A stretch of DNA of 64,000 nt from Prostheceraeus crozeri (Eukaryota > Platyhelminthes > Polycladida > Euryleptidae): the NCBI GenBank assembly GCA_907163375.1, contig CAJQUW010006832.1, forward strand, positions 186,001 through 250,000, read 5' to 3'. The translations under genes and the position numbers were made by a program. The notes under the pieces are model-generated. The model made no database searches and was not told the DNA's origin. It saw only the letters and a program-made list of their open reading frames with translations. Below are positions 42,234 to 63,670 of this stretch, piece by piece. Numbering within the stretch: the first letter of the stretch is position 1; each line of letters opens with the position of its first letter.

Positions 42234-42241
42234 CTGACATG
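42234..42241 (+). repeat. Left target-site duplication of the palindrome (CTGACATG)
   Basis: CTGACATG directly precedes the left terminus and recurs in the same orientation immediately after the right terminus (63,663-63,670). Flanking bases beyond it differ. Two extra bases (AG) separate it from the strictly matching part of the terminus, so the duplication may be 8-10 bp. Confidence 0.8.
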
Positions 42242-42480
42242 AGTAGTAAGAAAACGGCGAACACTCGACCGGCGCCCCCCCTCTGGAACGACAGAGGTCG
42301 TGGTCGGCCGCCGTGGTGCTTCGAGTCTGACTCCCCCCCTCTGGAACGACAGAGGTCTGTCGTGGTGTGCCGGCCAAGTTGGTCCGAAAGGTTCGCTGAC
42401 GTCCCCCCCCCTCGATAAAATGACAGAGTGTCGTGGTGGACTTGGGCGACCGCCAGGTTTTGACTTGAGGCTATAGTGTG
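42242..42480 (+). repeat. Left terminus: GC-rich with C-tracts and repeated GACAGAG motifs
   Basis: It starts AGTAGTAAGAAAACGGCG. Three blocks follow, each a run of about 7-9 C followed by a C/T-rich stretch, each near GACAGAG and TCGTGGT motifs. Two blocks share CTCTGGAACGACAGAGGT, itself partly palindromic. Repeated subterminal motifs like these commonly serve as binding sites for transposases or replication proteins; that role is inferred here. Confidence 0.75.
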
Positions 42481-43930
42481 TGATGTTTTTCGTGCAATCT
42501 GATGAATGTTGGGTTGAAAATGGGCTGTTTCGACTGGAAGCAGTGCTCGGATGTGAAAACGGAGGCCAGATTCGGATTCAGCGTGAAATTCTGCATCGGT
42601 ATGGTGAATTTGAAAGCAATCGGAGAGAAAAAGTTTCGCTGACGTCCCCCCCCCTCGGCACCGTCCTTCCAACTTTGCTTCTAGTGGACGGATTTTGTCG
42701 TGCCATAGCTCGTTTGAAAGCTAAGAGTGAGACAAATTCACTGAAAGAATCGGCTTGTTCATATCTGTCTTCGTTTAGATGTGAGACGCCATTTAAGATT
42801 TTGGGAGATTGGCGAAAAACGACAGAGTTAGAATTTTGGACGTTTTGGGTTCTAACGCCAAAACGAAGCATCGGATGGGAAAACGGATTTCAGATTTGGA
42901 ATCAGCATGAAATTCTCTATCAACATGGTGAGTTTCAAGTCAATCGGAGAGAAAAAGTTTCGCTGACGTCCCCCCCCCCCTCGGCACCGTCCTTCCAACT
43001 TTGCTTCTAGTGGACGGATTTTGTCGTGCAATAGCTCGTTTGAAAGCTAAGAGTGAGACAAATTCAGTGAAAGAAACGGCTTCTTCATATCTGTCTTCGT
43101 TTAGATGTGAGACGCCATTTAAGATTTTGGGAGATTGGCGAAAACGACAGAGTTAGAATTTTGGACGTTTTTTTTGTGCTGTAGCTTCAAAACGAAGCAT
43201 CGGATGGGAAAACGGATTTCAGATTTGGAATCAGCATGAAATTCTCTATCAACATGGTGAGTTTCAAGTCAATCGGAGAGAAAAAGTTTCGCTGACGTCC
43301 CCCCCCTCGGCACCGTCCTTCCAACTTTGCTTCTAGTGGACGGATTTTGTCGTGCAATAGCTCGTTTGAAAGCTAAGAGTGAGACAAATTCACTGAAAGA
43401 ATCGGCTTGTTCATATCTGCCTTCGTTTAGATGTGAGACGCCATTTAAGATTTTGGGAGATTGTCGAAAACGACAGAGTTAGAATTTTGGACGTTTTGGG
43501 CTGTAGCGCCAAAACGAAGCATCGGATTGGAAAACGGATTTCAGATTTGGAATCAGCATGAAATTCTCTATCAACATGGTGAGTTTCAAGTCAATCGGCG
43601 AGAAAAAATTTTCAACATTTTTCGAAAAACGACAGAGTTAGAATTTGGGACGTTTTGGTCTGTAGCGCCAAAACGAAGCATCGGATAGGAAAACGGAGAC
43701 CAGATTCGGATTCAGCGTGAAATTCTGCATCGATATGGTGAATTTGAAAGCAATAGGAGAGAAAAAATTTTTCTTCTCGAAATTTTTTCGAAAAAACGAC
43801 AGAGTTAGAATTTTTGCGATGGTTGTGGGCTGTAGAGCCAAAACGAAGCATCGGATGGGAAAACGGAGGCGAGATTCGGATTGAGCGTCAAATTCTACAT
43901 GGAAATGGTGTATTTCCAGCTCAATCGGAG
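42481..43930 (+). repeat. Outer tandem repeats, ~325-bp unit (left arm)
   Basis: CGCTGACGTC followed by a C-tract occurs at about 42,638, 42,961 and 43,290, marking units of 323 and 329 bp. Each contains AAAACGAAGCATCGGAT and GACAGAGTTAGAATTT. Shorter derived units continue to about 43,930. The open frame at 42,480-43,010 crosses unit boundaries and is a repeat artefact. Confidence 0.88.
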
Positions 43931-44003
43931 CACTAGAACCGGAGATAGACGGATTTAAAGATTTGGATGATGGGTATTACGTCATCAGCTGATCGCCACA
44001 CAC

Positions 44004-44037
44004 TATATAAGCTGGGAACCGACAGTGACTTGTCATT
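44004..44037 (+). promoter_or_regulatory. Gene 1 TATA + initiator promoter (left arm)
   Basis: TATATAA (44,004-44,010) is followed by ACAGTGA and then TCATT, which starts exactly 29 nt after the TATA box, the right place for an initiator. A donor CAAAG|GTAGGT follows at 44,058, so the first exon would be a short untranslated one. The gene 2 promoter has the same layout and motifs. Confidence 0.7.
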
Positions 44038-44057
44038 AAGACGAGATATTGCCAAAG

Positions 44058-45160
44058 GTAGGTCGTCTCTCTGAGCTCCGATGATAGCTTGGGACATTCC
44101 AAATTCCGGGTTTCTGTAAGAAACCGACTTAGAAAATTTCATTGCTGATATCAGCTAAGGCGTCAAACTTAGAGGTTAGCCAGGAGATGGCCTTCGTCTC
44201 CAGGCCATAAAAGACTCCAAAACTTTAAAGGCTTGTAACTTTGCTTCTACAAGTCCGTTTGACTTGATTCAAAAAAGGTTCGGTCGCTATTGACCTGCCA
44301 TAAGTGATAGATTACTTATAAAATTTCATAAGTAGTGCTAAAAAGTTGAAAAATTTAAATTCACTAGTTTTGGAAGTTTTCTGGGGTTTTCGACCCTGCT
44401 GAAGTCAATGAAAGCATTTTTAATGATGTCTGAGCCAGTCGTCTCATGGTATAAGCGGCTTTTCACTGAAAGCGAGCAAGACACGGAGAGTTTTGCTGTA
44501 ATATTCCACTGACAGGGTGTTCCTTCGGGACGGCGGACGATGCCGTAGTGATAAGTGTGGCAAGGGAGTGTGTCATAGTTTAGACCGTAACCGCTGGGAC
44601 AACTCATGTTTCATGTTGAGCATTTGACACAGTTCTCAACGTAGCACTTTGAACGCCAATCGGTTGAGTCTTAGCTATCTTGTCATGGGTGGCCTCTAAA
44701 CATCTCCATTGCAAAACGCTGGTGAATCAAGCTCTCTACGGCTTGCTATCAAGCTGATCAAAGCAATAACTTGGGATGTTTCCTCAAGGTTTTCAAGTAT
44801 GCTGAGTTCAAATCTGCTATCAGATTTCAAATTTAACTAAGTCTAAGGCAGCTTTGAGGGGTTAGATCCCAGCTACTGTTCACTACCTTTGACTCGGCGT
44901 TGCTGTTACCACTTCGGGGCAGTGACAATGATGTCTTAAGCTGTTAATAGCGGGTATCGGGGAAGATCTCTCACTTCCCTAGTGATCAGTACAAGGCCTT
45001 CGGGCTGTCGACGGGATCGAGTGCCACTCACTACACTCAAATCTATCATTCCTCACTAAGTGTAAAAATCATTGTTTTCCGTTTTTATAAACTAGGAATC
45101 AATCGTTTGCTATCAAACGTTTACGGACTTATAATCATTGTTTTCCCCTTTTCACTTCAG
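44058..45160 (+). other. Inferred 5' UTR intron of gene 1 (left arm)
   Basis: Donor G|GTAGGT at 44,058 and acceptor TTTTCACTTCAG ending at 45,160, three bases before the gene 1 ATG. The intron carries an 89-codon antisense frame (44,338-44,607) that is kept in both arms but has no recognisable motif. Confidence 0.55.
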
Positions 45161-45163
45161 AAA

Positions 45164-46400
45164 ATGGTTAACTACAATAATGCCAAGACGGCTTTCAAGC
45201 TCTGCGTTTGCAGAAAAATCTTTCGCAGTGATGCCTTTAAGAAACACTCTTGTGTGAATAAGCGAATGGTAGGGGGCATGCGATACTTTTGCAGCAGCCA
45301 TAATACATCTCGCCTTGTCGAGACGTTACCGGAGTGGCATGCGAAGCATAGCAGTTGCAGTCAACCAGAGCTGACTGAGGAGACGAAGCAAAGTCTCTTC
45401 AGCTCAGAGTTAAAAGCTCTGGAGACTCAGTGCGCTGTCGAGTCTATCGCGTCAGCAGAGCCTCCCTCATCTAGTGTGCCAGCAAAGGCTCTCTCACCCA
45501 CTCCGATTGAGTCTTCTCCGAAGTCGAGTAAATCCTCCTCTAGCGATGAGTCGGCTACTAGTAGCAGCGACAGTGAGGAAGAGGAGGAGGAGGAAAAAGG
45601 CTCGGCGAAGGCTCACCTAGTCGAGAGTGTCTACCTCGATAGCGAGGTAGAGTCGGTGAGGGAAGTCGACCTCGATAGCGAGGTGCAGCCGGCTAAGTCA
45701 TCGAGCAGTGGTGGGATTGCGGCTCAATGTCGCAACTTCATTATGCGCCCACCACTGGTCGATGACTATGACAAGCTGAAGAATGAGTTGGCAGTGTGGA
45801 AGAGCGACTGTTTCTTCTATAAAGCGAGTTCCGAGAACCTCTCGCGAGTCACTCAGGAGCTCAAGAAGACTCAAGCTAGTCTTCTTGAGAAAGAAGGAGA
45901 GCTCGATCGCGAGAGGTTCTCGCACCTCGCTAGTAAGGCCAGAGAAGAACAGCTCCTGATCGAGAGAGAGTCAAGAGAAGGAGTTGAGAAAGATGAGGGA
46001 GGAGGTGGAAGGGCTGCGAAAGCAGTTGGGGAAGGTGGTGGCGACTAATCAGGAGCTGCACCAACAAGTGAAGAGTAGCAGTACTCGACGATCAAGTCGC
46101 CTCCACATTCCCCTAGATAAGAAAGGAGGTGTGCCCGCAAGACCGCTCCTCTGTGAACGTGGCAGAGACGAAATGTGTTACAGCAGGGCTAAAAAAGGTA
46201 TCGAATGCCTTCATTTTACATTCGACCATAAGGAGGCAATCACAGGATTCCTGTTCGAACCACGTCTGGAGAAGATCTGTAAGTTAAAACAAGTAACTTA
46301 GAGTTCAAGATGATAACTAACAACTTCTTTCTTTACAGATATCAATGAGAAGCGCCCACCTGCTTCCGTCAACGAGCCGGAGGCGAAGCGGCAAGCTTGA
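45164..46400 (+). CDS. Gene 1 (left arm): Cys/His cluster, acidic linker, coiled-coil protein
   Basis: The start at 45,164 is chosen because an acceptor lies just upstream. The first ~65 residues hold a Cys/His cluster (LCVCRKIFRSDAFKKHSC, then RYFCSSHN and EWHAKHSSC) suggestive of zinc binding. Residues ~65-200 are Ser/Glu-rich with an acidic run. From ~230 a long heptad-like coiled coil begins. Near 45,968 the frame slips by one base in a GAGAGAGAG run, and the coiled coil continues in the next frame (EGLRKQLGKVVATNQELHQQV). A 60-nt intron follows (46,279-46,338, GTAAGT...TTTACAG) and a last exon ends ...EAKRQA at 46,400. Total about 390 residues. Function unknown; a DNA-binding, oligomerising protein is plausible. 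Being present in both arms, the slip is old, programmed or homogenised. Confidence 0.7.
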
Positions 46401-46671
46401 GTTCCATATTCCTCCAATCATCCCGAGAACGACCCATGGGCTCTCTTAAGGGTCAACCTTCTAATGCAGCTAAAGCGGTCCCAAGCCCGCCACATATCTA
46501 CGGATATGGAATGCAGAGGGGAAGAAAAATGATGAATGGAATGAAGGGAGGACATTCATGCGCCACACGCAACACATCACAGACTTCTCTCTTTGCTAGT
46601 GAACAAGCTCTTGTCAGTGTCGTACAAAGGTTTTACTGCAACACAGGTTCATGTATAGTTAGAAAAGTTTG
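46401..46671 (+). other. Probable gene 1 3' UTR
   Basis: A 91-codon frame (46,397-46,672), identical in both arms, begins at a TTG and overlaps the gene 1 stop in another frame. No motif, and no AATAAA close by. It may be UTR or an alternative C-terminus. Confidence 0.35.
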
Positions 46672-47510
46672 ATCATCAACGTTGTATTCGTAAGTCTAGT
46701 CAAAAACTATCATGGTTTGTAAAAGCAAAGTTAGTGTAGTCAGAAACTTTATCATGTTGTACAAAAGTTTTATTGCAACACAGGTTGATGTATAGTTAGA
46801 AAGTTTGATCATCAATGTTGTATTCGTAAGTCTAGTCAGAAAGTGTATCATGGTTTGCAAAGTTAGTGTAGTCAAATAATTTTACTGTGACACCCGTTTG
46901 AGAAAGTAAAGTCTGATCATCGAAGTTGTATTCGTGAGTGTCGTTAGAAAGTGTATCATGGTTTGTAAAAGTTTTACTGCAACACAGGTTCATGTATAGT
47001 TAGAAAAGTTTGATCATCAACGTTGTATTCGTAAGACTAGTCAGAAACTGTATCATGGTTTGTAAAAGCAAAGTTAGTGTAGTCAGAAACTTTATCATGT
47101 TGTAAAAAAGTTTTATTGCAACACAGGTTGATGTATAGTTAGAAAGTTTGATCATCAACGTTTTATTTGTAAGTCTACTCAGAAAGTGTATCATGGTTTG
47201 CAAAGTTAGTGTAGTCAAATAATTTCACTGTGACACCCGTTTGAGAAAGTAAAGTCTGATCATCGAAGTTGTATTCGTGAGTGTCGTTAGAAAGTGTATC
47301 ATGGTTTGTAAAAGTTTTACTGCAACACAGGTTGATGTATAGTTAGAAAAGTTTGATCATGACGTTTTATGAAACACACATGTCATGAAATGTAAGCGTT
47401 AGTGTAGTCAAATAATTTACCGCGACGCACGTTTGTGAGAATAAAGTTTGATCATTGACGTTGTATGACTGACCGAACTCATCACAGGACTAGAAAGTTT
47501 TAGAAGGTTT
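46672..47510 (+). repeat. Satellite block between gene 1 and gene 2 (left arm)
   Basis: A higher-order repeat of about 340 bp (GCAACACAGGTTCATGTATA at about 46,639 and 46,979), built of ~110-bp related subunits that each contain AAGT(T/C)TGATCATC, TTGTATTCGT and TATCATG. The right arm carries about 480 bp more of it. Confidence 0.85.
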
Positions 47511-48122
47511 TACTGCACAGTGTAGATTGTCTTGTAACTTACGTTCACAGTGTTAGAAAGTTTTATTGGAGACAGTTGCCAAATGTTTCCCTATTAGAAA
47601 TTCAAACTTCATGACTGTTAGATTAGCTTCATCAGGTTTAGTAAAAGCAGTTTTCTACTGCAGTAAGACTGCGAGTTTAGAATGTTATATGAAAACAGTG
47701 TTCACCAAAGCGCTAGAAAGTTTTACTGCGCTGTGTAGATTGTTTCACACAAGGTCTTATAGTCAGCGTTGAATGTATTATAAAACCAGATGTTGTCACA
47801 CACGTTGAGTGTGTGAGAGCTAGTTCCATGACATTGAATCGCATGGGTTGTAAAGTTCATAATCCAAGGCTAGGCTCCTCTACGGTTGGATTTAGGGTTT
47901 TATATTACATGCGTTAACCGTTCGTGTAGAATATGTGAAGCACATGTTCGCTTAAATGCAAATGTTGAAATAAGTTTGTAAGAAGTCTTTGACAGGTTCT
48001 TGTGAAACGTAGCGAACGTTGAAGAAATGTTTCTGCAGTCACACTCGTTAGCGTGCCAGCTTTACTAGATAAGTTCTATTCTCCAATGAGGATTGTTGTC
48101 TAATGAGAATCAAGCATTCCTT
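47511..48122 (+). other. Spacer upstream of gene 2 (left arm)
   Basis: Conserved in both arms. It includes a 68-codon frame (47,566-47,772) that differs at one residue between the arms. No recognisable domain; probably regulatory or untranslated. Confidence 0.35.
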
Positions 48123-48156
48123 TATAAATAGAGAGCCTTCCACAGTGAGAATCATT
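48123..48156 (+). promoter_or_regulatory. Gene 2/3 TATA + initiator promoter (left arm)
   Basis: TATAAATA (48,123-48,130), then ACAGTGA, then TCATT beginning 29 nt after the TATA box. This is the same order and nearly the same spacing as at gene 1. A (TC)n run lies in the short 5' UTR before the ATG at 48,235. Confidence 0.75.
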
Positions 48157-48234
48157 CCATCGTTGAATCGTACAAGTGACGGACGCACACTCTCTCTCTC
48201 TCTCTCTACATCCCTGTTATATTATCCAACTAAA

Positions 48235-49009
48235 ATGGTAAGTCGCTACTTTCCACCCTCTCCTCCCTTGAACGTTAACTTAATATAATCTTTTTCATTT
48301 TCAGGCATCTACTCAATCTGCTGCACTAGTAGGACAAAATGGCGGTCAAACGTTACAAGGTTCGCTACGATCAGATCATCTACAACTGAGACCAGTGGAA
48401 GAAACAACAAAGGTACATAATCCTACACCGCTACAGCGTAAATTTAAACAAGTCTTGCGTCATGAGGATCACAGCGTAGTACTGCAAACGGGAATGCTCC
48501 CTTCCACTGATGTGAAGATATTGAGCAATCAGTATGGGGACTACATACTCATCCCCGTGAGTCCGTACATTCGCCACCAACTTGACATTATTGAAGAGTA
48601 CGTGACATTAAATATGGACATTCCTACTCCTCTTACTCAAGAGTGGAAGGCGAGAGATGAAAAAGATACTCCATATAGAAAGATTTGGGATGGTAATCAA
48701 ATTTGCCTACCATTATCACATTGGTGTAGTTATTATAAAAAGGATGGAGATCAATCAATACCCATCAGATGTGATGAGCTCGGAGAAGGTACTTGGGATG
48801 TCATTTTCAAAGTGAATGGGCTATATTATGGTCAGCACAAAGATAACGAAATAGCCTCTCCCTCGATATACACTGAATCCATCCTATATATTCCAAAGCC
48901 ACCCAGCGTAGATGACATTATTGACAAAATCCTTAACGGGGGTGGTACGAAGCGCAAGTCGGGCAAGAATGCTACCTCCAAACGCAAGTCAAGGAAAGAG
49001 AATTGCTAA
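48235..49009 (+). CDS. Gene 2 (left arm): 235-residue protein with basic C-terminus
   Basis: Exon 1 contributes only the ATG (48,235-48,237), followed by a textbook donor (ATG|GTAAGT). The 67-nt intron ends TTTTCATTTTCAG at 48,304, and exon 2 is open in phase from GCATCTACT to a stop at 49,009. The middle of the protein (residues ~85-195) has alternating strand-like segments with conserved-looking aromatic positions (YRKIWDGNQICLPLSHWCSY, GTWDVIFKVNGLYYGQHKD) that could form a compact beta domain, possibly OB-like; that is a guess. The last ~25 residues are Lys/Arg-rich (TKRKSGKN...KRKSRK) like a nuclear localisation signal. Four residues differ from the right-arm copy. No family recognised. 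Confidence 0.78.
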
Positions 49010-49043
49010 TCCTTTCCTAACTCTACCCTATGACAATTCGCTT

Positions 49044-49169
49044 ATGTGCTTTGAGTGTCGTGGACGTGGTCTTATCAGATACATTTTACTTCTTCGTTGC
49101 CATCATATCATTCGTGTATTTTGTCGTGAAAAGCATCGATGTAATTCTTCATTTTGTGATATGTTATAG
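49044..49169 (+). CDS. Possible small Cys/His-rich frame between genes 2 and 3 (left arm)
   Basis: A frame starting at ATG 49,044 reads MCFECRGRG, then LRCHHIIRVFCREKHRCNSSFC, a C-x2-C ... CHH-x5-C-x4-H-x2-C-x5-C spacing suggestive of zinc binding. It overlaps the end of gene 2's longer out-of-frame ORF and ends at TAG 49,169, 33 bases before the gene 3 acceptor. A donor-like CGT|GTATTT at 49,116 would join it to gene 3 in phase. It is identical in both arms. It could be an alternative N-terminus for the exonuclease or a chance frame. Confidence 0.3.
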   Translation: MCFECRGRGLIRYILLLRCHHIIRVFCREKHRCNSSFCDML

Positions 49170-49202
49170 AACGTTTCCTTAGATGTGTAATTTCCGTTTT
49201 AG

Positions 49203-49751
49203 GCTTCTATCATCATTTTTATGGATTGTGAGGGTGAACCTGTGCAGGAGCTCAGTGCTATTGCTATGAACAATTGGGCATATCAGATTGTTAGTGTCTA
49301 TCATCAACATGCCAACTGTGATCCCAATGTTGATCAATGGGCGAGAAAACACATTCATGGACTTAATCTGAAATATTTGCAAGACTATGGCTTTTCTTGT
49401 GAGACTGCTCTTCTTACTGACTTTAAATGATGGTTAGCTGCTTTCAATGTTATACGCATCTTTTGTAATAATCCTGGTAAGGAGAGGAAAGTATTTCCCA
49501 ATCTAGTCATTAATGATATTTTGCTCCCACCTTGGGATAGTAGAGTGAATCAACACTATCATGAAGTCACGAAACGTTTTAAGGATTTGTGTGTTCCTAT
49601 TTTGTCTGTTCGTTGTAGTAGCTACGTTCATAACCAATGCTTCTTTCCTCCTTACCTCAACACTGCCAAAGTCCTATATGGTTATCATTGCTCGCTTTAT
49701 GACAGTTACCAGCTGTATCTATTTTATCTGTTTCAAACCATTGATTTGTAA
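49203..49751 (+). CDS. Gene 3 (left arm): DEDDh/DnaQ-like 3'-5' exonuclease fold, in-frame TGA
   Basis: An acceptor (TTCCGTTTTAG) ends at 49,202. The frame then opens ASIIIFMDCEGEPVQELSAI, a strand followed by the D-x-E motif I of DEDD exonucleases. HIHGLN follows (the usual IHGI after motif I), then a central motif II region (WLAAFNVIRIFCNN) and, later, the candidate H/D motif III region (CSSYVHNQ ... YHCSLYD). One in-frame TGA at 49,428-49,430 (DFK-TGA-WLAAF) splits it; the frame is otherwise open to TAA at 49,751 (about 181 residues). The second half continues the fold with no frame change, so the TGA is either read through or inactivating. It is present in both arms. The start is probably supplied by gene 2's ATG exon; internal Met at 49,221 is the alternative. 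Expected activity: trimming DNA or RNA 3' ends. Confidence 0.68.
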
Positions 49752-49773
49752 TGCATGCTTGTTACAGTTATTC

Positions 49774-49779
49774 AATAAA
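49774..49779 (+). terminator. Poly(A) signal of gene 3 (left arm)
   Basis: AATAAA 22 nt after the gene 3 stop, followed by a T/G-rich stretch. Likely the main 3' end of the gene 2/3 transcript; the minisatellite beyond holds many more AATAAA copies. Confidence 0.7.
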
Positions 49780-49919
49780 TGTTATTATGCGAAGAGTTGT
49801 TGTTATCATGCAATGGATGGGTTAGATGAAGGGTGATCATATCTTTTTCAAATGACTGTGGAACATTGATATCCATGATGAAGATTAAAACAGTTGGATT
49901 TGATGACGAATAAGATTTA

Positions 49920-52900
49920 CTAGTTTGCCAGTTAGACTAAGCGTTCTACTATTTATAAATGAAAGATATAGTTTCAAAAGTTTACAGATTAAAAATAAAG
50001 TTTCAATAGTGTATGTGTTAGAAATAAAGTTTAAGCTGTTTCTATGTTAGAAATAAAATAAAGTTTCAAGAATTTACAAGTTAAAAATAAAGTTTCAACA
50101 CTGCGTACGTTAGAAATAAAGTTACATCTGTTTGTAAAATATTGCGGGATTTAACAGTGTGTAAGTTAGACTAAGCGTTCCACTATTTGTAAATGAAAGA
50201 TATAGTTTCAACAGTTTACAAGTTAAGAATAAAGTTTTATCTGTTTGTATGTTAGAAATAAAACAAAGTTTCAACCGTTTACAAGTTAAAAATAAAGTTT
50301 CAATAGTTTACAAGTTAAGAATAAAGTTTCAATAGTGTGTATGTTAAGAATAAAGTTTCATCTGTTTGTATGTTAGAAATAAAATGAAGTTTCACCATTT
50401 GGCAAGTTAAGAATAAAGTTTTATCTGTTTGTATGTTAGAAATAAAACAAAGTTTCACCCGTTTACAAGTTAAAAATAAAGTTTCAATAGTTTACAAGTT
50501 AAGAATAAAGTTTCAATAATGTGTATGTTAAGAATAAAGTTCTATCTGTTTATATGTTAGAAATAGAACGAAGTTTCACCAGTTTACAAGTTAAGAATAA
50601 AGTTCTATCTGTTTGTATGTTAGAAATAAAATGAAGTTTCATCAGTTTACAAGTTAGGAATAAAGTTTTATCTGTTTGTATGTTAGAAATAAAACAAAGT
50701 TTCAACCGTTAACAAGTTAAAAATAAAGTTTCAATAGTCTGCAAGTTAAAACTAATGTTTCAATAGTGCATATGTTAAGAATAAAGTTATATCTGCTTGT
50801 TTGTCAGAAATAAAATGAAGCTTCACCAGTTTAAAAGTTAAGAATAAAGTTTTATCTGCTTGTATGTGTACGTTAGAAAACAAGTTTCAACCGTTACCGT
50901 TTACAAGTTAAGAATAAAGTTTTATCTGTTTGTATGTTAGAAATAAAATGAAGTTTCACCAGTTGGCAAGTTAAGAATAAAGTTTTATCTGTTTGTATGT
51001 TAGAAATAAAATAAAGTTTCAACCGTTTACAAGTTAAAAATAAAGTTTCAACAGTGTGTACGTTAGAAATAAAGTTACATCTGTTTGTAAAATATTGCGG
51101 GATTTAATAGTTTGTAAGTTAGACTAAGCGTTCCACTATTTGTAAATGAAAGATATAGTTTCAACAGTTTACAAGTTAGGAATAAAGTTTTATCTGTTTG
51201 TATGTTAGAAATAAAACAAAGTTTTAACCGTTAACAAGTTAAAAATAAAGTTTCAATAGTTTGCAAGTTAAAACTAATGTTTCAATAGTGCATATGTTGA
51301 GAATAAAGTTTTATCTGTTTGTATGTTAGAAATAAAATGAAGCTTCACCAGTTTACAAGTTAAGAATAAAGTTTTATCTGCTTGTATGTCAGAAATGAAA
51401 TAAAGTTTCACCAGTTTAACAGTTAAAAATAAAGTTTCAATAATGTGTACGTTAGAAATAAAGTTTCAACCGTTACCGTTTACAAGTTAAAAATAAAGTT
51501 TCAATAGTGTGTATGTTTAGAATAAAGTTCTATCTGTTTATATGTTAGAAATAAAAATGAAGGTTCACCAGTTTACAAGTTAAGAATAAAGTTTATCTGT
51601 TTGTATGTTAGAAATACAATTAAGTTTCACCAGTTGGCTAGTTAAGAATAAAGTTTTATCTGTTTGTATGTTAGAAATAAAACAAAGTTTCAACCGTTTA
51701 CAAGTTAAAAATAAAGTTTCAATAGTGTGTATGTTAAGAATAAAGTTTTATCTGTTTGTATGTTAGAAATAAAATGAAGTTTCATCAGTTTACAAGTTAG
51801 GAATAAAATTTTATCTGTTCGTATGTTAGAAATAAAACAAAGTTTCAACCGTTAACAAGTTAAAAATAAAGTTTCAATAATGTGCAAGTTAAAACTTATG
51901 TCTCAATAGTGCGTATGTTAAGAATAAAGTTTTATCTGTTTGTATGTTAGAAAAATAATGAAGCTTCACCAGTTTACAAGTTAAGAATAAAGTTTTATCA
52001 GCCTGTATGTTAGAAATAAAATAAAGTTTCAATCGTTTACGAATTAAAAATAAAGTTTCAATAGTGTGTACGTTAGAAATAAAGTTACATCCGTTTGTAA
52101 AATAAGATTGCGGGATTTAATAGTTTGTAAGTTAGACTAAGCGTTCCACTATTTGTAAATGAAAGATATAGTTTCAACAGTTTACAAGTTAAGAATAAAG
52201 TTTTATCTGTTTGTATGTTAGAAATAAAACAAAGTTACAACCGTTAACAAGTTAAAAATAAAGTTTCAATAGTTTGCAAGTTAAAACTAATGTTTCAATA
52301 GTGCATATGTTAAGAATAAAGTTTTATCTGCTTGTATGTCAGAAATAAAATGAAGCTTCACCAGTTTACAAGTTAAGAATAAAGTTTTATCTGCTTGTAT
52401 GTCAGAAATGAAATAAAGTTTCACCAGTTTAACAGTTAAAAATAAAGTTTTAAATAATGTGTACGTTAGAAATAAAGTTTCAACCGTTACCGTTTACAAG
52501 TTAAAAATAAAGTTTCAATAGTGTGTATGTTTAGAATAAAGTTCTATCTCTTTATATGTTAGAAATAAAAATGAAGGTTCACCAGTTTACAAGTTAAGAA
52601 TAAAGTTTTATCTGTTTGTATGTCAGAAATAAAATTAAGTTTCACCAGTTGGCTAGTTAAGAATAAAGTTTTATCTGTTTGTATGTTAGAAATAAAACAA
52701 AGTTTCAACCGTTTACAAGTTAAAAATAAAGTTTCAATAGTTTACAAGTTAAGAATAAAGTTTCAATAGTGTGCAAGTTAAGAATAAAGTTTTATCTGTT
52801 TGTATGTTAGAAATAAAATGAAGTTTCACCAGTTTACAAGTTAAGAATAAAGTTCTATCTGTTTGTATGTTAGAAATAAAATGAAGTTTCATCAGTTTAC

Positions 52901-54390
52901 AAGTTAGGAATAAAGTTTTATCTGTTCGTATGTTAGAAATAAAACAAAGTTTCAACCGTTAACAAGTTAAAAATAAAGTTTCAATAATGTGCAAGTTAAA
53001 ACTTATGTCTCAATAGTGCGTATGTTAAGAATAAAGTTTTATCTGTTTGTATGTTAGAAAAATAATGAAGCTTCACCAGTTTACAAGTTAAGAATAAAGT
53101 TTTATCAGCCTGTATGTTAGAAATAAAATAAAGTTTCAATCGTTTACGAATTAAAAATAAAGTTTCAATAGTGTGTACGTTAGAAATAAAGTTACATCCG
53201 TTTGTAAAATAAGATTGCGGGATTTAATAGTTTGTAAGTTAGACTAAGCGTTCCACTATTTGTAAATGAAAGATATAGTTTCAACAGTTTACAAGTTAAG
53301 AATAAAGTTTTATCTGTTTGTATGTTAGAAATAAAACAAAGTTACAACCGTTAACAAGTTAAAAATAAAGTTTCAATAGTTTGCAAGTTAAAACTAATGT
53401 TTCAATAGTGCATATGTTAAGAATAAAGTTTTATCTGCTTGTATGTCAGAAATAAAATGAAGCTTCACCAGTTTACAAGTTAAGAATAAAGTTTTATCTG
53501 CTTGTATGTCAGAAATGAAATAAAGTTTCACCAGTTTAACAGTTAAAAATAAAGTTTTAAATAATGTGTACGTTAGAAATAAAGTTTCAACCGTTACCGT
53601 TTACAAGTTAAAAATAAAGTTTCAATAGTGTGTATGTTTAGAATAAAGTTCTATCTCTTTATATGTTAGAAATAAAAATGAAGGTTCACCAGTTTACAAG
53701 TTAAGAATAAAGTTTTATCTGTTTGTATGTCAGAAATAAAATTAAGTTTCACCAGTTGGCTAGTTAAGAATAAAGTTTTATCTGTTTGTATGTTAGAAAT
53801 AAAACAAAGTTTCAACCGTTTACAAGTTAAAAATAAAGTTTCAATAGTTTACAAGTTAAGAATAAAGTTTCAATAGTGTGCAAGTTAAGAATAAAGTTTT
53901 ATCTGTTTGTATGTTAGAAATAAAATGAAGTTTCACCAGTTTACAAGTTAAGAATAAAGTTCTATCTGTTTGTATGTTAGAAATAAAATGAAGTTTCATC
54001 AGTTTACAAGTTAGGAATAAAGTTTTATCTGTTTGTATGTTAGAAATAAAACAAACTTTCAACCGTTAACAAGTTAAAAATAAAGTTTCAATAATGTGCA
54101 AGTTAAAACTTATGTCTCAATAGTGCGTATGTTAAGAATAAAGTTTTATCTGTTTGTATGTTAGAAATATAATTAAGCTTCACCAGTTTACAAGTTAAGA
54201 ATAAAGTTTTATCAGCTTGTATGTTAGAAATAAAATAAAATTTCAATCGTTTACAAATTAAAAATAAAGTTTCAATAGTGTGTACGTTAGAAATAAAGTT
54301 TCAACCGTTTACAAGTTAAAAATAAAGTTTCAACAGTGTCTACGTTAGAAATAAAGTTTTATCTGTTTGTAAAGTACGATCGTAGGATTA
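49920..54390 (+). repeat. Inner minisatellite, left half: AATAAA on the plus strand
   Basis: About 4.5 kb of ~27-33-bp units such as GTTAGAAATAAAGTTTCA with (C/A)TCTGTTTGTAT or AATAGTGTGTAT. Almost every unit has AATAAA followed 10-20 nt later by a T/GT-rich stretch, the layout of a poly(A) site. An exact-looking internal duplication of about 1,107 bp covers roughly 51,830-54,050. Open frames here are artefacts. Confidence 0.93.
51830..54050 (+). repeat. 1,107-bp direct duplication inside the left minisatellite
   Basis: The same irregular unit order recurs 1,107 bp apart; for example ACATCCGTTTGTAAAATAAG lies near 52,085 and again near 53,192, and matching frames lie at 52,749 and 53,856. 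Near identity of long irregular stretches means a recent block duplication. Confidence 0.85.
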
Positions 54391-56165
54391 TTTTTATTTC
54401 TATTTTTATATATTTATTTCTAACGTACACACTGTTGAAATTTTATTTTGTTTCTAACATATAAACAGCTAAAACTTTATTTCTAACGTACACACTGTTG
54501 AAACTTTATTTTTAACTTGTAAACGGCTGAAACTTTATTTCTAACGCACAAAGCGCTTAAACTTTATTTCCATCATACGCACTATTGAAACTTTATTTTA
54601 ATCTGTAAACTGTTGAAACGATATTTTTCATTTACAACTAGTAGAACGCTGAGTCTAACTTGCAAACTAGTAAATCTTGCGATCTTGTCTTACAAACAGT
54701 TATACCTTTCTTTCTGGCATATAAAGTGTTATACCTCTATTTCTAACATACAAGCAGTTAAAACTTTATTTCTAACTTACAAACAGATAAAACTTTATTC
54801 CTAACGTACACACTGTTGAAACTTTATTTTTCAGCTTGTAAACTGCTGGAACTTTGTTTTGTTTCTAACATATAAACAGATAAAACTTTATTTCTAACGT
54901 ACACACTGTTGGAACTTTATTTTTAACTTGTAAACGGTCGAAACTTTATTTTATTTCTAACACACGCACACACAAACAGTCATAATTTTATTTCTAACGT
55001 GCACACTATTGAAACTTTATTTTAATCTGTAAACTGTTGAGACGATATTTTTCATTTACAACTAGTAGAATGCTGAGTCTAACTTGTAAACTAGTAAATC
55101 CTACGATCGTACTTTACAAACAGATAAAACTTTATTTCTAACGTAGACCCTGTTGAAACTTTATTTTTAACTTGTAAACGGTTGAAACTTTATTTTTAAT
55201 TTGTAAACTGGTGAAACTTCATTTTATTTCTAACATACAAACAGATAGAACTTTATTCTTAACTTGTAAACTGGTGAAACTTCGTTCTATTTCTAACATA
55301 TAAACAAATAGAACTTTATTCTTAACATACACATTATTGAAACTTTATTCTTAACTTGTAAACTATTGAAACTTTATTTTTAACTTGTAAACGGTTGAAA
55401 CTTTGTTTTATTTCTAACATACAAACAGATAAAACTTTATTCTTAACTTGCCAACTGGTGAAACTTCATTTTATTTCTAACATACAAACAGATAGAACTT
55501 TATTCTTTACTTGTAAACTGGTGAAACTTTGTTCTATTTCTAACATATAAACAGATAGAACTTTATTCTTAACATACACACTATTGAAACTTTATTTTTA
55601 ACTTGTAAACGGTAACGGATGAAACTTTAGTTCTAACGTACACATACAAGCAGATCAAACTTTATTCTTAACTTTTAAACTGGTGAAGCTTCATTTTATT
55701 TCTGACATACAAGCAGATAAAACTTTATTCTTAACATATGCACTATTGAAACATTAGTTTTAACTTGTAAACTATTGAAACTTTATTTTTAACTTGTTAA
55801 CGGTTGAAACTTTGTTTTATTTCTAACATACAAACAGATAAAACTTTATTCTTAACTTGTAAACTGTTGAAACTATATCTTTCATTTACAAATAGTGGAA
55901 CGCTTAGTCTAACTTACAAACTATTAAATCCCGCAATCTTATTTTACAAACAGATGTAACTTTATTTCTAACGTACACAGTGTTGAAACTTTATTTTTAA
56001 CTTGTAAACTCTTGAAACTTTATTTTATTTCTAACATAGAAACAGCTTAAACTTTATTTCTAACACATACACTATTGAAACTTTATTTTTAATCTGCGAA
56101 CTGTTGAAACTATATCTTTCATTTACAAATAATAGAACGTTTAGTCTAACTTGCAAACTAGTAAA
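54391..56165 (-). repeat. Inner minisatellite, right half: AATAAA on the minus strand
   Basis: After an A/T-only junction at about 54,390-54,410 the unit is read in reverse (TTTATTTCTAAC, GTTGAAAC). The block at 55,087-55,142 is the inverted copy of 54,340-54,390, so local symmetry is centred near 54.74 kb while the arms are centred near 53.04 kb. The right half is about 2.7 kb shorter than the left. Confidence 0.92.
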
Positions 56166-56301
56166 TCTTATTCGTCATCAAATCCAACTGTTTTAATCTT
56201 CATTATGGATATCAATGTTCCACAGTCATTTCAAAAAGATATGATCACCCTTCATCTAACCCATCCATTGCATGATAACAACAACTCTTCGCATAATAAC
56301 A

Positions 56302-56307
56302 TTTATT
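56302..56307 (-). terminator. Poly(A) signal of gene 3 (right arm)
   Basis: AATAAA on the minus strand, the exact mirror of 49,774-49,779. Confidence 0.7.
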
Positions 56308-56329
56308 GAATAACTGTAACAAGCATGCA

Positions 56330-56878
56330 TTACAAATCAATGGTTTGAAACAGATAAAATAGATACAGCTGGTAACTGTCATAAAGCGAGCAATGATAAC
56401 CATATAGGACTTTGGCAGTGTTGAGGTAAGGAGGAAAGAAGCATTGGTTATGAACGTAGCTACTACAACGAACAGACAAAATAGGAACACACAAATCCTT
56501 AAAACGTTTCGTGACTTCATGATAGTGTTGATTCACTCTACTATCCCAAGGTGGGAGCAAAATATCATTAATGACTAAATTGGGAAATACTTTCCTCTCC
56601 TTACCAGGATTATTACAAAAGATGCGTATAACATTGAAAGCAGCTAACCATCATTTAAAGTCAGTAAGAAGAGCAGTCTCACAAGAAAAGCCATAGTCTT
56701 GCAAATATTTCAGATTAAGTCCATGAATGTGTTTTCTCGCCCATTGATCAACATTGGGATCACAGTTGGCATGTTGATGATAGACACTAACAATCTGATA
56801 TGCCCAATTGTTCATAGCAATAGCACTGAGCTCCTGCACAGGTTCACCCTCACAATCCATAAAAATGATGATAGAAGC
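56330..56878 (-). CDS. Gene 3 (right arm): DEDDh-like exonuclease, same in-frame TGA
   Basis: Mirror of 49,203-49,751. The predicted residues on both sides of the TGA (56,651-56,653) are identical to the left arm, including DCEGEP and HIHGLN. Perfect residue conservation over the whole frame is striking given the four changes in gene 2, and the TGA is shared. Transcribed towards the centre. Confidence 0.68.
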
Positions 56879-56911
56879 CTAAAACGGAAATTACACATCT
56901 AAGGAAACGTT

Positions 56912-57037
56912 CTATAACATATCACAAAATGAAGAATTACATCGATGCTTTTCACGACAAAATACACGAATGATATGATGGCAACGAAGAAGTAAAATGT
57001 ATCTGATAAGACCACGTCCACGACACTCAAAGCACAT
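56912..57037 (-). CDS. Possible small Cys/His-rich frame (right arm)
   Basis: Mirror of 49,044-49,169, identical in sequence, ending at a stop just before the gene 3 acceptor. The same doubts apply: chance frame or alternative exon. Confidence 0.3.
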   Translation of the reverse strand: MCFECRGRGLIRYILLLRCHHIIRVFCREKHRCNSSFCDML

Positions 57038-57071
57038 AAGCGAATTGTCATAGGGTAGAGTTAGGAAAGGA

Positions 57072-57846
57072 TTAGCAATTCTCTTTCCTTGACTTGCGTT
57101 TGGAGGTAGCATTCTTGCCCGACTTGCGCTTCGTACCACCCCCGTTAAGGATTTCGTCAATAATGTCATCTACGCTGGGTGGCTTTGGAATATATAGGAT
57201 GGATTCAGTGTATATCGAGAGAGAGGCTATTTCGTTATCCTTGTGCTGACCATAATATAGCCCATTCACTTTGAAAATGACATCCCAAGTACCTTCTCCG
57301 AGCTCATCACAACTGATGGGTATTGATTGATCTCCATCCTTTTTATAATAACTACACCAATGTGATAATGGTAGGCAAATTTGATTGCCATCCCAAATCT
57401 TTCTATATGGAGTATCTTTTTCATCTCTCGCCTTCCACTCTTGAGCAAGAGGAGTAGGAATGTCCATATTTAATGTCACGTACTCTTCAATAATGTCAAG
57501 TTGGTGGCGAATGTACGGACTCACGGGGATGAGTATGTAGTCCCCATACTGATTGCTCAATATCTTCACATCAGTGGAAGGGAGCATTCCCGTTTGCAGT
57601 ACTACGCTGTGATCCTCATGACGCAAGACTTGTTTAAATTTACGCTGTAGCGGTGTAGGATTATGTACCTTTGTTGTTTCTTCCACTGGTCTCAGTTGTA
57701 GATGATCTGATCGTAGCGAACCTTGTAACGTTTGACCGCCATTTTGTCTTACTAGTGCAGCAGATTGAGTAGATGCCTGAAAATGAAAAAGATTATATTA
57801 AGTTAACGTTCAAGGGAGGAGAGGGTGGAAAGTAGCGACTTACCAT
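57072..57846 (-). CDS. Gene 2 (right arm): 235-residue protein
   Basis: Mirror of 48,235-49,009: ATG-only exon (57,844-57,846), 67-nt intron, then a single exon to 57,072. Relative to the left copy it has T to A (PLTQ/PLAQ), R to S (IPIR/IPIS), P to L (ASPS/ASLS) and K to E (IIDK/IIDE). The basic C-terminus is unchanged. Both copies are intact, so both could be expressed. Confidence 0.78.
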
Positions 57847-57922
57847 TTTAGTTGGATAATATAACAGGGATGTAGAGAGAGAGAGAGAGTGTGCGTCCGT
57901 CACTTGTACGATTCAACGATGG

Positions 57923-57956
57923 AATGATTCTCACTGTGGAAGGCTCTCTATTTATA
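57923..57956 (-). promoter_or_regulatory. Gene 2/3 TATA + initiator promoter (right arm)
   Basis: TATAAATA on the minus strand (57,949-57,956), with ACAGTGA and TCATT downstream at the same spacing as the left copy. Confidence 0.75.
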
Positions 57957-58569
57957 AAGGAATGCTTGATTCTCATTAGACAACAATCCTCATTGGAGAA
58001 TAGAACTTATCTAGTAAAGCTGGCACGCTAACGAGTGTGACTGCAGAAACATTTCTTCAACGTTCGCTACGTTTCACAACAACCTGTCAAAGACTTCTTA
58101 CAAACTTATTTCAACATTTGCATTTAAGCGAACATGTGCTTCACATATTCTACACGAACGGTTAACGCATGTAATATAAAACCCTAAATCCAACCGTAGA
58201 GGAGCCTAGCCTTGGATTATGAACTTTACAACCCATGCGATTCAATGTCATGGAACTAGCTCTCACACACTCAACGTGTGTGACAACATCTGGTTTTATA
58301 AAACATTCAACGCTGACTATAAGACCTTGTGTGAAACAATCTACACAGCGCAGTAAAACTTTCTAGCGCTGTGGTGAACACTGTTTTCATATAACATTCT
58401 AAACTCGCAGTCTTACTGCAGTAGAAAACTGCTTTTACTAAACCTGATGAAGCTAATCTAACAGTCATGAAGTTTGAATTTCTAATAGGAAAACATTTGG
58501 CAACTGTCTCCAATAAAACTTTCTAACACTGTGAACGTAAGTTACAAGACAATCTAAACTGTGCAGTAA
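57957..58569 (-). other. Spacer upstream of gene 2 (right arm)
   Basis: Mirror of 47,511-48,122. The 68-codon frame differs at one residue (K/T) from its left counterpart. No function assigned. Confidence 0.35.
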
Positions 58570-59886
58570 AACCTTCTAAAACTTTCTAGTCCTGTGATGA
58601 GTTCGGTCAGTCATACAACGTCAATGATCAAACTTTATTCTCACAAACGTGCGTCGCGGTAAATTATTTGACTACACTAACGCTTACATTTCATGACATG
58701 TGTGTTTCATAAAACGTCATGATCAAACTTTTCTAACTATACATCAACCTGTGTTGCAGTAAAACTTTTACAAACCATGATACACTTCTAACGACACTCA
58801 CGAATACAACTTCGATGATCAGACTTTACTTTCTCAAACGGGTGTCACAGTGAAATTATTTGACTACACTAACTTTGCAAACCATGATACACTTTCTGAG
58901 TAGACTTACAAATAAAACGTTGATGATCAAACTTTCTAACTATACATCAACCTGTGTTGCAATAAAACTTTTTTACAACATGATAAAGTTTCTGACTACA
59001 CTAACTTTGCTTTTACAAACCATGATACAGTTTCTGACTAGTCTTACGAATACAACGTTGATGATCAAACTTTTCTAACTATACATGAACCTGTGTTGCA
59101 GTAAAACTTTTACAAACCATGATACACTTTCTAACGACACTCACGAATACAACTTCGATGATCAGACTTTACTTTCTCAAACGGGTGTCACAGTAAAATT
59201 ATTTGACTACACTAACTTTGCAAACCATGATACACTTTCTGACTAGACTTACGAATACAACATTGATGATCAAACTTTCTAACTATACATCAACCTGTGT
59301 TGCAATAAAACTTTTGTACAACATGATAAAGTTTCTGACTACAATAACTTTGCTTTTACAAACCATGATAGTTTTTGACTAGACTTACGAATACAACGTT
59401 GATGATCAAACTTTTCTAACTATACATCAACCTGTGTTGCAATAAAACTTTTTTACAACATGATAAAGTTTCTGACTACACTAACTTTGCTTTTACAAAC
59501 CATGATACAGTTTCTGACTAGTCTTACGAATACAACGTTGATGATCAAACTTTTCTAACTATACATCAACCTGTGTTGCAGTAAAACTTTTACAAACCAT
59601 GATACACTTTCTAACGACACTCACGAATACAACTTCGATGATCAGACTTTACTTTCTCAAACGGGTGTCACAGTAAAATTATTTGACTACACTAACTTTG
59701 CAAACCATGATACACTTTCTGACTAGACTTACGAATACAACATTGATGATCAAACTTTCTAACTATACATCAACCTGTGTTGCAATAAAACTTTTGTACA
59801 ACATGATAAAGTTTCTGACTACACTAACTTTGCTTTTACAAACCATGATAGTTTTTGACTAGACTTACGAATACAACGTTGATGAT
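58570..59886 (-). repeat. Satellite block between gene 1 and gene 2 (right arm)
   Basis: Same ~340-bp higher-order repeat as 46,672-47,510 but about 480 bp longer, from an extra higher-order unit plus part of another. This copy-number change is the main asymmetry in this part of the palindrome. Confidence 0.85.
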
Positions 59887-60157
59887 CAAACTTTTCTAAC
59901 TATACATGAACCTGTGTTGCAGTAAAACCTTTGTACGACACTGACAAGAGCTTGTTCACTAGCAAAGAGAGAAGTCTGTGATGTGTTGCGTGTGGCGCAT
60001 GAATGTCCTCCCTTCATTCCATTCATCATTTTTCTTCCCCTCTGCATTCCATATCCGTAGATATGTGGCGGGCTTGGGACCGCTTTAGCTGCATTAGAAG
60101 GTTGACCCTTAAGAGAGCCCATGGGTCGTTCTCGGGATGATTGGAGGAATATGGAAC

Positions 60158-61394
60158 TCAAGCTTGCCGCTTCGCCTCCGGCTCGTTGACGGAAGCAGGT
60201 GGGCGCTTCTCATTGATATCTGTAAAGAAAGAAGTTGTTAGTTATCATCTTGAACTCTAAGTTACTTGTTTTAACTTACAGATCTTCTCCGGACGTGGTT
60301 CGAACAGGAATCCTGTGATTGCCTCCTTATGGTCGAATGTAAAATGAAGGCATTCGATACCTTTTTTAGCCCTGCTGTAACACATTTCGTCTCTGCCACG
60401 TTCACAGAGGAGCGGTCTTGCGGGCACACCTCCTTTCTTATCTAGGGGAATGTGGAGGCGACTTGATCGTCGAGTACTGCTACTCTTCACTTGTTGGTGC
60501 AGCTCCTGATTAGTCGCCACCACCTTCCCCAACTGCTTTCGCAGCCCTTCCACCTCCTCCCTCATCTTTCTCAACTCCTTCTCTTGACTCTCTCTCGATC
60601 AGGAGCTGTTCTTCTCTGGCCTTACTAGCGAGGTGCGAGAACCTCTCGCGATCGAGCTCTCCTTCTTTCTCAAGAAGACTAGCTTGAGTCTTCTTGAGCT
60701 CCTGAGTGACTCGCGAGAGGTTCTCGGAACTCGCTTTATAGAAGAAACAGTCGCTCTTCCACACTGCCAACTCATTCTTCAGCTTGTCATAGTCATCGAC
60801 CAGTGGTGGGCGCATAATGAAGTTGCGACATTGAGCCGCAATCCCACCACTGCTCGATGACTTAGCCGGCTGCACCTCGCTATCGAGGTCGACTTCCCTC
60901 ACCGACTCTACCTCGCTATCGAGGTAGACACTCTCGACTAGGTGAGCCTTCGCCGAGCCTTTTTCCTCCTCCTCCTCTTCCTCACTGTCGCTGCTACTAG
61001 TAGCCGACTCATCGCTAGAGGAGGATTTACTCGACTTCGGAGAAGACTCAATCGGAGTGGGTGAGAGAGCCTTTGCTGGCACACTAGATGAGGGAGGCTC
61101 TGCTGACGCGATAGACTCGACAGCGCACTGAGTCTCCAGAGCTTTTAACTCTGAGCTGAAGAGACTTTGCTTCGTCTCCTCAGTCAGCTCTGGTTGACTG
61201 CAACTGCTATGCTTCGCATGCCACTCCGGTAACGTCTCGACAAGGCGAGATGTATTATGGCTGCTGCAAAAGTATCGCATGCCCCCTACCATTCGCTTAT
61301 TCACACAAGAGTGTTTCTTAAAGGCATCACTGCGAAAGATTTTTCTGCAAACGCAGAGCTTGAAAGCCGTCTTGGCATTATTGTAGTTAACCAT
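60158..61394 (-). CDS. Gene 1 (right arm): Cys/His cluster, acidic linker, coiled coil
   Basis: Mirror of 45,164-46,400: start at 61,392-61,394, the same one-base frame slip in a GA run at about 60,590, intron 60,220-60,279, and last exon to 60,158. The first frame is identical in all residues; the second differs at one (EPRLEK/EPRPEK). The shared slip argues against a random sequencing error in one arm. Confidence 0.7.
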
Positions 61395-61397
61395 TTT

Positions 61398-62500
61398 CTG
61401 AAGTGAAAAGGGGAAAACAATGATTATAAGTCCGTAAACGTTTGATAGCAAACGATTGATTCCTAGTTTATAAAAACGGAAAACAATGATTTTTACACTT
61501 AGTGAGGAATGATAGATTTGAGTGTAGTGAGTGGCACTCGATCCCGTCGACAGCCCGAAGGCCTTGTACTGATCACTAGGGAAGTGAGAGATCTTCCCCG
61601 ATACCCGCTATTAACAGCTTAAGACATCATTGTCACTGCCCCGAAGTGGTAACAGCAACGCCGAGTCAAAGGTAGTGAACAGTAGCTGGGATCTAACCCC
61701 TCAAAGCTGCCTTAGACTTAGTTAAATTTGAAATCTGATAGCAGATTTGAACTCAGCATACTTGAAAACCTTGAGGAAACATCCCAAGTTATTGCTTTGA
61801 TCAGCTTGATAGCAAGCCGTAGAGAGCTTGATTCACCAGCGTTTTGCAATGGAGATGTTTAGAGGCCACCCATGACAAGATAGCTAAGACTCAACCGATT
61901 GGCGTTCAAAGTGCTACGTTGAGAGCTGTGTCAAATGCCCAACATGAGACATGAGTTGTCCCAGCGGTTACGGTCTAAACTATGACACACTCCCTTGCCA
62001 CACTTATCACTACGGCATCGTCCGCCGTCCCGAAGGAACACCCTGTCAGTGGAATATTACAGCAAAACTCTCCGTGTCTTGCTCGCTTTCAGTGAAAAGC
62101 CGCTTATACCATGAGACGACTGGCTCAGACATCATTAAAAATGCTTTCATTGACTTCAGCAGGGTCGAAAACCCCAGAAAACTTCCAAAACTAGTGAATT
62201 TAAATTTTTCAACTTTTTAGCACTACTTATGAAATTTTATAAGTAATCTATCACTTAGGGCAGGTCAATAGCGACCGAACCTTTTTTGAATCAAGTCAAA
62301 CGGACTTGTAGAAGCAAAGTTACAAGCCTTTAAAGTTTTGGAGTCTTTTATGGCCTGGAGACGAAGGCCATCTCCTGGCTAACCTCTAAGTTTGACGCCT
62401 TAGCTGATATCAGCAATGAAATTTTCTAAGTCGGTTTCTTACAGAAACCCGGAATTTGGAATGTCCCAAGCTATCATCGGAGCTCAGAGAGACGACCTAC
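61398..62500 (-). other. Inferred 5' UTR intron of gene 1 (right arm)
   Basis: Mirror of 44,058-45,160, with the same donor and acceptor and the same antisense 89-codon frame (61,951-62,220). Confidence 0.55.
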
Positions 62501-62520
62501 CTTTGGCAATATCTCGTCTT

Positions 62521-62554
62521 AATGACAAGTCACTGTCGGTTCCCAGCTTATATA
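62521..62554 (-). promoter_or_regulatory. Gene 1 TATA + initiator promoter (right arm)
   Basis: TATATAA on the minus strand (62,548-62,554) with the same ACAGTGA...TCATT arrangement as the left arm. Confidence 0.7.
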
Positions 62555-62639
62555 GTGTGTGGCGATCAGCTGATGACGTAATACCCATCATCCAAATCTT
62601 TAAATCCGTCTATCTCCGGTTCTAGTGCTCCGATTGAGC

Positions 62640-63424
62640 TGGAAATACACCAATTCCATGTAGAATTTGACGCTCAATCCGAATCTCGCCTCCGTTTTCC
62701 CATCCGATGCTTCGTTTTGGCTCTACAGCCCACAACCATCGCAAAAATTCTAACTCTGTCGTTTTTTTCGAAAAAATTTCGAGAAGAAAAATTTTTTCTC
62801 TCCTATTGCTTTCAAATTCACCATATCGATGCAGAATTTCACGCTGAATCCGAATCTGGTCTCCGTTTTCCTATCCGATGCTTCGTTTTGGCGCTACAGA
62901 CCAAAACGTCCCAAATTCTAACTCTGTCGTTTTTCGAAAAATGTTGAAAATTTTTTCTCGCCGATTGACTTGAAACTCACCATGTTGATAGAGAATTTCA
63001 TGCTGATTCCAAATCTGAAATCCGTTTTCCCATCCGATGCTTCGTTTTGGCGCTAGAGCCCAAAACGTCCAAAATTCTAACTCTGTCGTTTTTCGCCAAT
63101 CTCCCAAAATCTTAAATGGCGTCTCACATCTAAACGAAGACAGATATGAAGAAGCCGTTACTTTCAGTGAATTTGTCTCACTCTTAGCTTTCAAACGAGC
63201 TATTGCACGACTTTCTACGATCACTAGAACCAAAATTGGAAGTTTGGTGCCGGGGGGGGGACGTCAGCGAAACTTTTTCTCTCCGATTGCTTTCAAATTC
63301 ACCATACCGATGCAGAATTTCACGCTGAATCCGAATCTGGCCTCCGTTTTCACATCCGAGCACTGCTTCCAGTCGAAACAGCCCATTTTCAACCCAACAT
63401 TCATCAGATTGCACGAAAAACATC
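62640..63424 (-). repeat. Outer tandem repeats (right arm), two fewer units
   Basis: The same AAAACGAAGCATCGGAT and GACAGAGTTAGAATTT blocks as 42,481-43,930. The full GACGTC/C-tract unit is present once (near 63,250) instead of three times, which accounts for the ~654-bp length difference between the arms. Confidence 0.85.
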
Positions 63425-63662
63425 ACACACTATAGCCTCAAGTCAAAACCTGGCGGTCGCCCAAGTCCACCACGACACTCTGTCATTTTATCGAGGGGGG
63501 GACGTCAGCGAACCTTTCGGACCAACTTGGCCGGCACACCACGACAGACCTCTGTCGTTCCAGAGGGGGGGAGTCAGACTCGAAGCACCACGGCGGCCGA
63601 CCACGACCTCTGTCGTTCCAGAGGGGGGGCGCGCCGGTCGAGTGTTCGCCGTTTTCTTACTG
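63425..63662 (-). repeat. Right terminus: inverted copy of the left GC-rich end
   Basis: Read on the minus strand it starts CAGTAAGAAAACGGCGAACA and then repeats the left terminus, including the C-tracts and the CTCTGGAACGACAGAGGT blocks. It adjoins CTGACATG directly. Confidence 0.85.
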
Positions 63663-63670
63663 CTGACATG
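63663..63670 (+). repeat. Right target-site duplication (CTGACATG)
   Basis: Same orientation and sequence as 42,234-42,241. The next bases (GAT) differ from the left side (AGT). Confidence 0.8.

Follow-up and report, generated by a model that had tools for sequence, protein, structure and literature searches.

What kind of mobile element underlies the gene-bearing palindrome found in a 64,000-nucleotide stretch of the Prostheceraeus crozeri genome (contig CAJQUW010006832.1, positions 186,001 to 250,000 of the forward strand; here, the window)? According to the self-comparison of the window, the palindrome occupies positions 42242-63664 and consists of the inverted arms 42242-54371 and 54413-63664. 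It has been compared with related copies in the host assembly (2.05 Gb, 14,165 contigs; labels such as C388 and C1878 denote contigs of this assembly), and the element is quite probably a non-autonomous palindromic satellite of Polintons (Mavericks), which would have been born by fold-back and would be mobilized in trans.

Outside the arrays, the two arms diverge by about 0.3%. In particular, the arm-to-arm comparison of positions 43682-49800 yields 19 substitutions over approximately 6.1 kb and one 480-bp difference in tandem-repeat length. The AT-rich arrays are approximately 4.4 kb long in the left arm versus 1.75 kb in the right one, and because of this inequality the pivot, itself located within AT-rich satellite DNA, is off-centre. 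Such differences in substitutions and array length argue against an assembly artefact (a palindromic read or a collapsed repeat), as do the flanks, which differ from each other and bear a target duplication, and the presence of the same layout on many contigs. Fold-back reads are a known artefact, and 28 of the first 100 matches of the arm-specific 31-mer described below have no listed partner, but an artefactual origin is nonetheless very unlikely. The single gene-bearing palindromic mobile unit proposed by the initial annotation is upheld by the matching arms and ends, the flanking duplication and the relatives elsewhere.

The search for the termini in the rest of the genome, suggested by the same annotation, has revealed many copies with differing flanking duplications. 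The exact 17-bp terminus GTAAGAAAACGGCGAAC (at 42246 in the window, with the complement at 63644) has 1102 + 1091 = 2,193 genome matches, and its reversed control has none. In the first 100 of these places, we noted 26 pairs of termini that face each other at distances of about 11 to 39 kb; 16 of these pairs, the palindromic copy C2238 and the window element form the sample of 18 end pairs considered here. The inverted ends of the window element extend four bases past the terminus as first read (AGTA on the left, AGCA on the right), and the exact layout, with no base left over, is observed in the 6-bp register: GACATG, AGTAGTAAG...CTTACTGCT, GACATG. The 8-bp repeat CTGACATG is readable at 42234 and 63663 (and, for the third time, at 915), but this register leaves unmatched bases between the repeat and the terminus; on the right, the C and T preceding GACATG are part of the element end itself, and their presence on the left is a chance match of two bases. 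The 8-bp reading was dropped in favor of 6 bp when the ends had been re-registered and other copies checked.

Terminal inverted repeats, one of the Polinton/Maverick criteria, are present in the window element, and its termini, AGTAGT on the left and AGCAGT on the right, are of the AG...CT, (AGT)2 type, the other 17 end pairs starting with AGTA at both ends. A perfect 6-bp duplication is observed in 14 of the 18 pairs, the window included. In the relevant parts of a published description, vertebrate Mavericks terminate in 5'-(AGT)2//(ACT)2-3' or (AG)3 and are flanked by perfect 6-bp duplications (PMC8097293), and the window ends and duplication match this signature. The initial annotation had invoked duplications of 8-10 bp and an affinity to hAT, P, Mutator or Drosophila FB elements; neither is borne out, as the 6-bp duplication and the (AGT)2-type ends indicate a Polinton derivative. 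A fold-back element of such a cut-and-paste superfamily, to which the readable 8-bp repeat and the tandem units within the terminal repeats could point, is extremely improbable, given 13 further pairs with the 6-bp duplication directly at AGTA...TACT ends and an integrase in typical copies with the same ends.

In the first 320 bp, the best match of an end is its own partner repeat in 12 of 13 duplication-bearing pairs (C7 being the exception) and in none of the 4 pairs without a duplication, and no palindromy past the terminal repeats is seen in 14 of the 16 fetched pairs. One end of a typical copy (one copy tested) carries segment A (see the table) and a gene similar to g1, the first gene of the window arm, followed by an open reading frame (ORF) that encodes zinc fingers and matches Endonuclease_7. 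At the other end (one copy tested), g2 and g3 precede additional ORFs, one of which encodes an integrase core and a chromodomain (rve 5.2e-10, Chromo 4e-06). Typical copies also have a P-loop-like ORF and a weak match to Adeno_PX (E 0.0026), both of which are under the curated cut-off. The window arm joins g1, from the polymerase side of a Polinton, to g2 and g3, from the integrase side, and all of these are doubled. Pfam searches of five window ORF stretches of g1-g3 gave no match to integrase, PolB, capsid genes or packaging ATPase. Thus, the earlier remark that no transposase or polymerase is visible holds for the window ORFs, and the element is a non-autonomous derivative rather than an autonomous Polinton. 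The full Polintons of the same genome are the likely source of enzymes acting in trans.

Some end loci have individual features. Contig C5 stops four bases past the terminus (38428-38448), at the exact element end, which could be accidental or could reflect a linear extrachromosomal form. C53 has three termini in one orientation, approximately 8 kb apart (89450, 97304, 105637), and the two that were read have an identical outer flank, a match that suggests tandem duplication of an element end plus flank. At the right end of C499, approximately 3.8 kb of DNA interrupts the g2-g3 block close to where g3 ends, as would result from insertion of another element.

Positions 46618-48076 of the window arm have no match in any fetched typical end locus and therefore can be used as a marker of the palindromic family. 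A 641-bp probe yielded 40 scored matches of 2,596 candidates (98-100% identical), including 11 inverted pairs, one of them in the window. The arm-specific 31-mer (at most 1 mismatch) has 600 forward and 592 reverse matches, with none for the control. Among its first 100 places, neighbors within 25 kb comprise 36 inward, 1 outward and 2 same-strand pairs, the inward ones being spaced by 4.7-21.2 kb (median 8.5), and extension of this sample to the whole count gives roughly 600 palindromic copies in the genome. The variant terminus GTAATAAAACGGCGAAC (361 + 359 genome matches) flanks the arm pairs of C619, C802 and C1273 and the arm triple of C865, and also forms the ends of C2238, with the duplication GGTGTG. 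The idea that family members lack Polinton ends was dropped once the ends had turned up nearer than first guessed.

A second, independent palindrome, C388, mirrors the left half of a Polinton. It has the duplication TTTCAG and the order terminal repeat, g1-type gene, polymerase-type ORF and a portion of the following gene, all of which are then inverted. The ORFs contain what we take to be polymerase-B motifs, recognized by eye rather than with a profile. Its spacer (L041 1386-1689) contains a 35-bp exact inverted repeat around a 59-bp loop and a stretch of approximately 177 bp on one side only. In the left arm the next gene continues into the spacer, as expected if a nascent or displaced strand had folded back. 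In C591 (11.4 kb, duplication AAGAAA), the inverted ends extend approximately 1.3 kb past the terminal repeats and then diverge. Plain snap-back of one Polinton end suits C388 but fails for the window arm with its pieces of both sides.

The 31-bp centre of the window palindrome is unique in the genome. Its left side coincides with the C1878 centre (a 117-bp inverted repeat with 115 identical positions, a 38-bp loop and a nested 22-bp palindrome) at 89 of 89 bases and then breaks off, and hence the window centre is a deletion junction of a C1878-like centre. This rules out the unique centre as a proof of separate birth.

The arms of one copy evolve together. In seven copies compared over 540 bp within the family-specific stretch, the arm differences inside each copy are 4, 0, 0, 0, 1, 2 and 0, versus a mean of 5.07 (range 0-9, 84 comparisons) between copies, and none of 20,000 random pairings gave an equally low value; in this region, C6734 and C2238 do not differ from each other at all. 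The window arms have common variants that six other copies do not show, yet differ at 4 sites, so that either fold-back or conversion could operate. Similarly, the window arms are 99.65% alike in segment A (96.8-98.2% with six other ends), 99.92% in g1 (98.8-98.9% with C591) and 99.50% in segment B (48077-49867; 93% with 13 typical copies, whose identity to one another is 96.7-99.8%). As the arm part 43781-46455 is 97-99% similar to other copies, versus 93% for 48077-49867 (g2-g3), the two halves have different histories.

These data also bear on the possibility that the palindrome originated in a single ancient event and has since been copied whole, its arms being kept alike by chromosomal gene conversion after insertion rather than by fold-back in each round. 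Consistent with a single origin, one arm-specific sequence is common to all counted copies, the sampled arms vary little from copy to copy, and the centres may have a common ancestor, given that the window centre is a deleted C1878-like one. At the same time, C388 demonstrates that palindromes arise afresh from other Polinton parts, and the window arms have the variants not seen in six other copies. A single origin is conceivable, though we consider it rather doubtful.

According to the favored satellite explanation, a strand of a linear Polinton, whose protein-primed replication is assumed by analogy, would fold back and be copied onto itself, yielding the same Polinton end twice. The doubled molecule would retain all that is needed in cis, and the integrase and polymerase of full Polintons would replicate and insert the palindrome. 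In later rounds, one arm would repeatedly template the other (by hairpin copying, or by panhandle formation or gene conversion), so that the arms stay alike. More tentatively, and with well under even confidence, the functional unit may be one hairpin-ended arm: replication primed at the terminal repeat would round the central hairpin and rebuild the second arm, the C1878 centre acting as the turning point, and the roughly 600 copies would be a heritable family resembling defective interfering genomes, with its own single-stranded-DNA-binding protein.

The candidate for the latter is g2, which is predicted to share an OB-type fold with viral single-stranded-DNA-binding proteins (T7 gp2.5 / CP312R-like) and is probably such a protein; it would serve strand-displacement replication. 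Its reading frame is intact, with a first exon consisting of ATG only (assigned by eye), an intron and the exon 48305-49009. The g2 relatives P0003, P0007, P0010, P0014, P0016, P0017 and P0019 have an FQAS-like start resembling a read-through splice acceptor, and thus the intron and the short exon preceding it may be ancient. No g2 match was found in phage or plasmid records, IMG/VR, prokaryote genomes or PDB sequences. Profile searches gave no convincing family for g1, with a frame shift near 45984 and an apparent intron at 46271-46337 (by eye), or for g3.

Several observations weigh against the satellite explanation. The duplication is absent in 4 of the 18 end pairs (C347, C259, C385, C499). 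C12338 and C14132 each carry two matches of the 641-bp probe on one strand, C422 is a 9.6-kb end pair with a single listed arm match, and the unpaired 31-mer matches belong here as well. The window arm is not a plain half, as it joins pieces of both Polinton sides and an unexplained stretch, and this mixed origin requires at least one additional rearrangement. Foldseek gave no match for g2 at E <= 0.001. The g2 copies of the two window arms differ by 5 nonsynonymous and 2 synonymous changes, a count with no sign of constraint since the arms parted, and the constraint seen in comparison with typical copies could sit on the typical side. Moreover, no extrachromosomal form, replication intermediate or transposition has been observed.

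Features of the palindromic element and its borders (window coordinates)
Feature	Position	Strand	Basis
Target duplication, left copy, GACATG	42236..42241		End comparison
Left terminal inverted repeat, 326-bp and 159-bp tandem units, begins AGTAGTAAGAAAACGG	42242..43780	+	Self-comparison, repeat analysis
Segment A, also at one end of several typical Polintons, 96-98%	43781..45086	+	
g1, left arm, cysteine-rich and coiled-coil protein	45164..46455	+	Relatives in C591, C347, C555
Arm-specific stretch, 343-bp tandem units to ~47360, non-repeated DNA beyond	46618..48076	+	
g2, left arm, predicted OB-fold single-stranded-DNA-binding protein, 234 aa	48235..49009	+	
g3, left arm, stop codon in both arms of the window copy	49215..49751	+	
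Left AT-rich satellite array, 29/34/63-bp units	49949..54371		
Palindrome pivot, deletion junction private to the window copy	54372..54412		
Right AT-rich satellite array	54413..56167		
g2, right arm, main exon	57072..57776	-	
g1, right arm, frame shift as in the left arm	60257..61607	-	
Right terminus, CTTACTGCT end	63644..63664	-	
Target duplication, right copy, GACATG	63665..63670		

The window contains no tRNA and no Rfam family. Outside the palindrome, decayed transposon pieces are seen at 9037-10089 (minus strand), 33229-34539 (plus) and 36228-36704 (plus), with a weak DDE_3 match and with stretches assigned by eye as Penelope-like reverse transcriptase and as mariner-like.

Among known systems, the Drosophila FB and Galileo fold-back elements also have long inverted arms with tandem repeats, but differ from the window element in the duplication length, the lack of Polinton ends and the lack of a shared gene set in the arms. 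Symmetric defective adenovirus genomes are also palindromic, being derived from a single end of a linear genome with protein-primed replication; unlike the window element, they are not inherited transposons. No palindromic Polinton was found in titles or abstracts of the searched literature, subscription journals being outside its scope. The 6-bp duplications, (AGT)2-type ends and terminal inverted repeats are those given for Mavericks in the cited parts of PMC8097293, and the window element has genes and ends in common with integrase-bearing copies of the same genome; it differs from Polintons in being palindromic throughout and having no recognized integrase, polymerase, ATPase or capsid gene. 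In snapback defective genomes of adeno-associated virus, as outlined in part of PMC8235507, a viral end is doubled through fold-back and carried as a subgenomic companion, but the virus is small and single-stranded and its ends are hairpins, whereas here integrated copies of approximately 20 kb have target duplications. With regard to the way of formation, these snapback genomes and the symmetric adenovirus genomes are the nearest parallels.

The window element suggests how virus-like transposons can fold back, copy half of themselves and yet still spread. If the satellite explanation is true, the palindromic family, the arm homogenization and the fresh fold-backs would together be a genomic record of Polinton replication and defective genomes, and the mechanism of Polinton replication would become testable in an animal-type genome. 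Moreover, fold-back defective genomes of a virus-like element would be able to turn into successful, inherited satellites.
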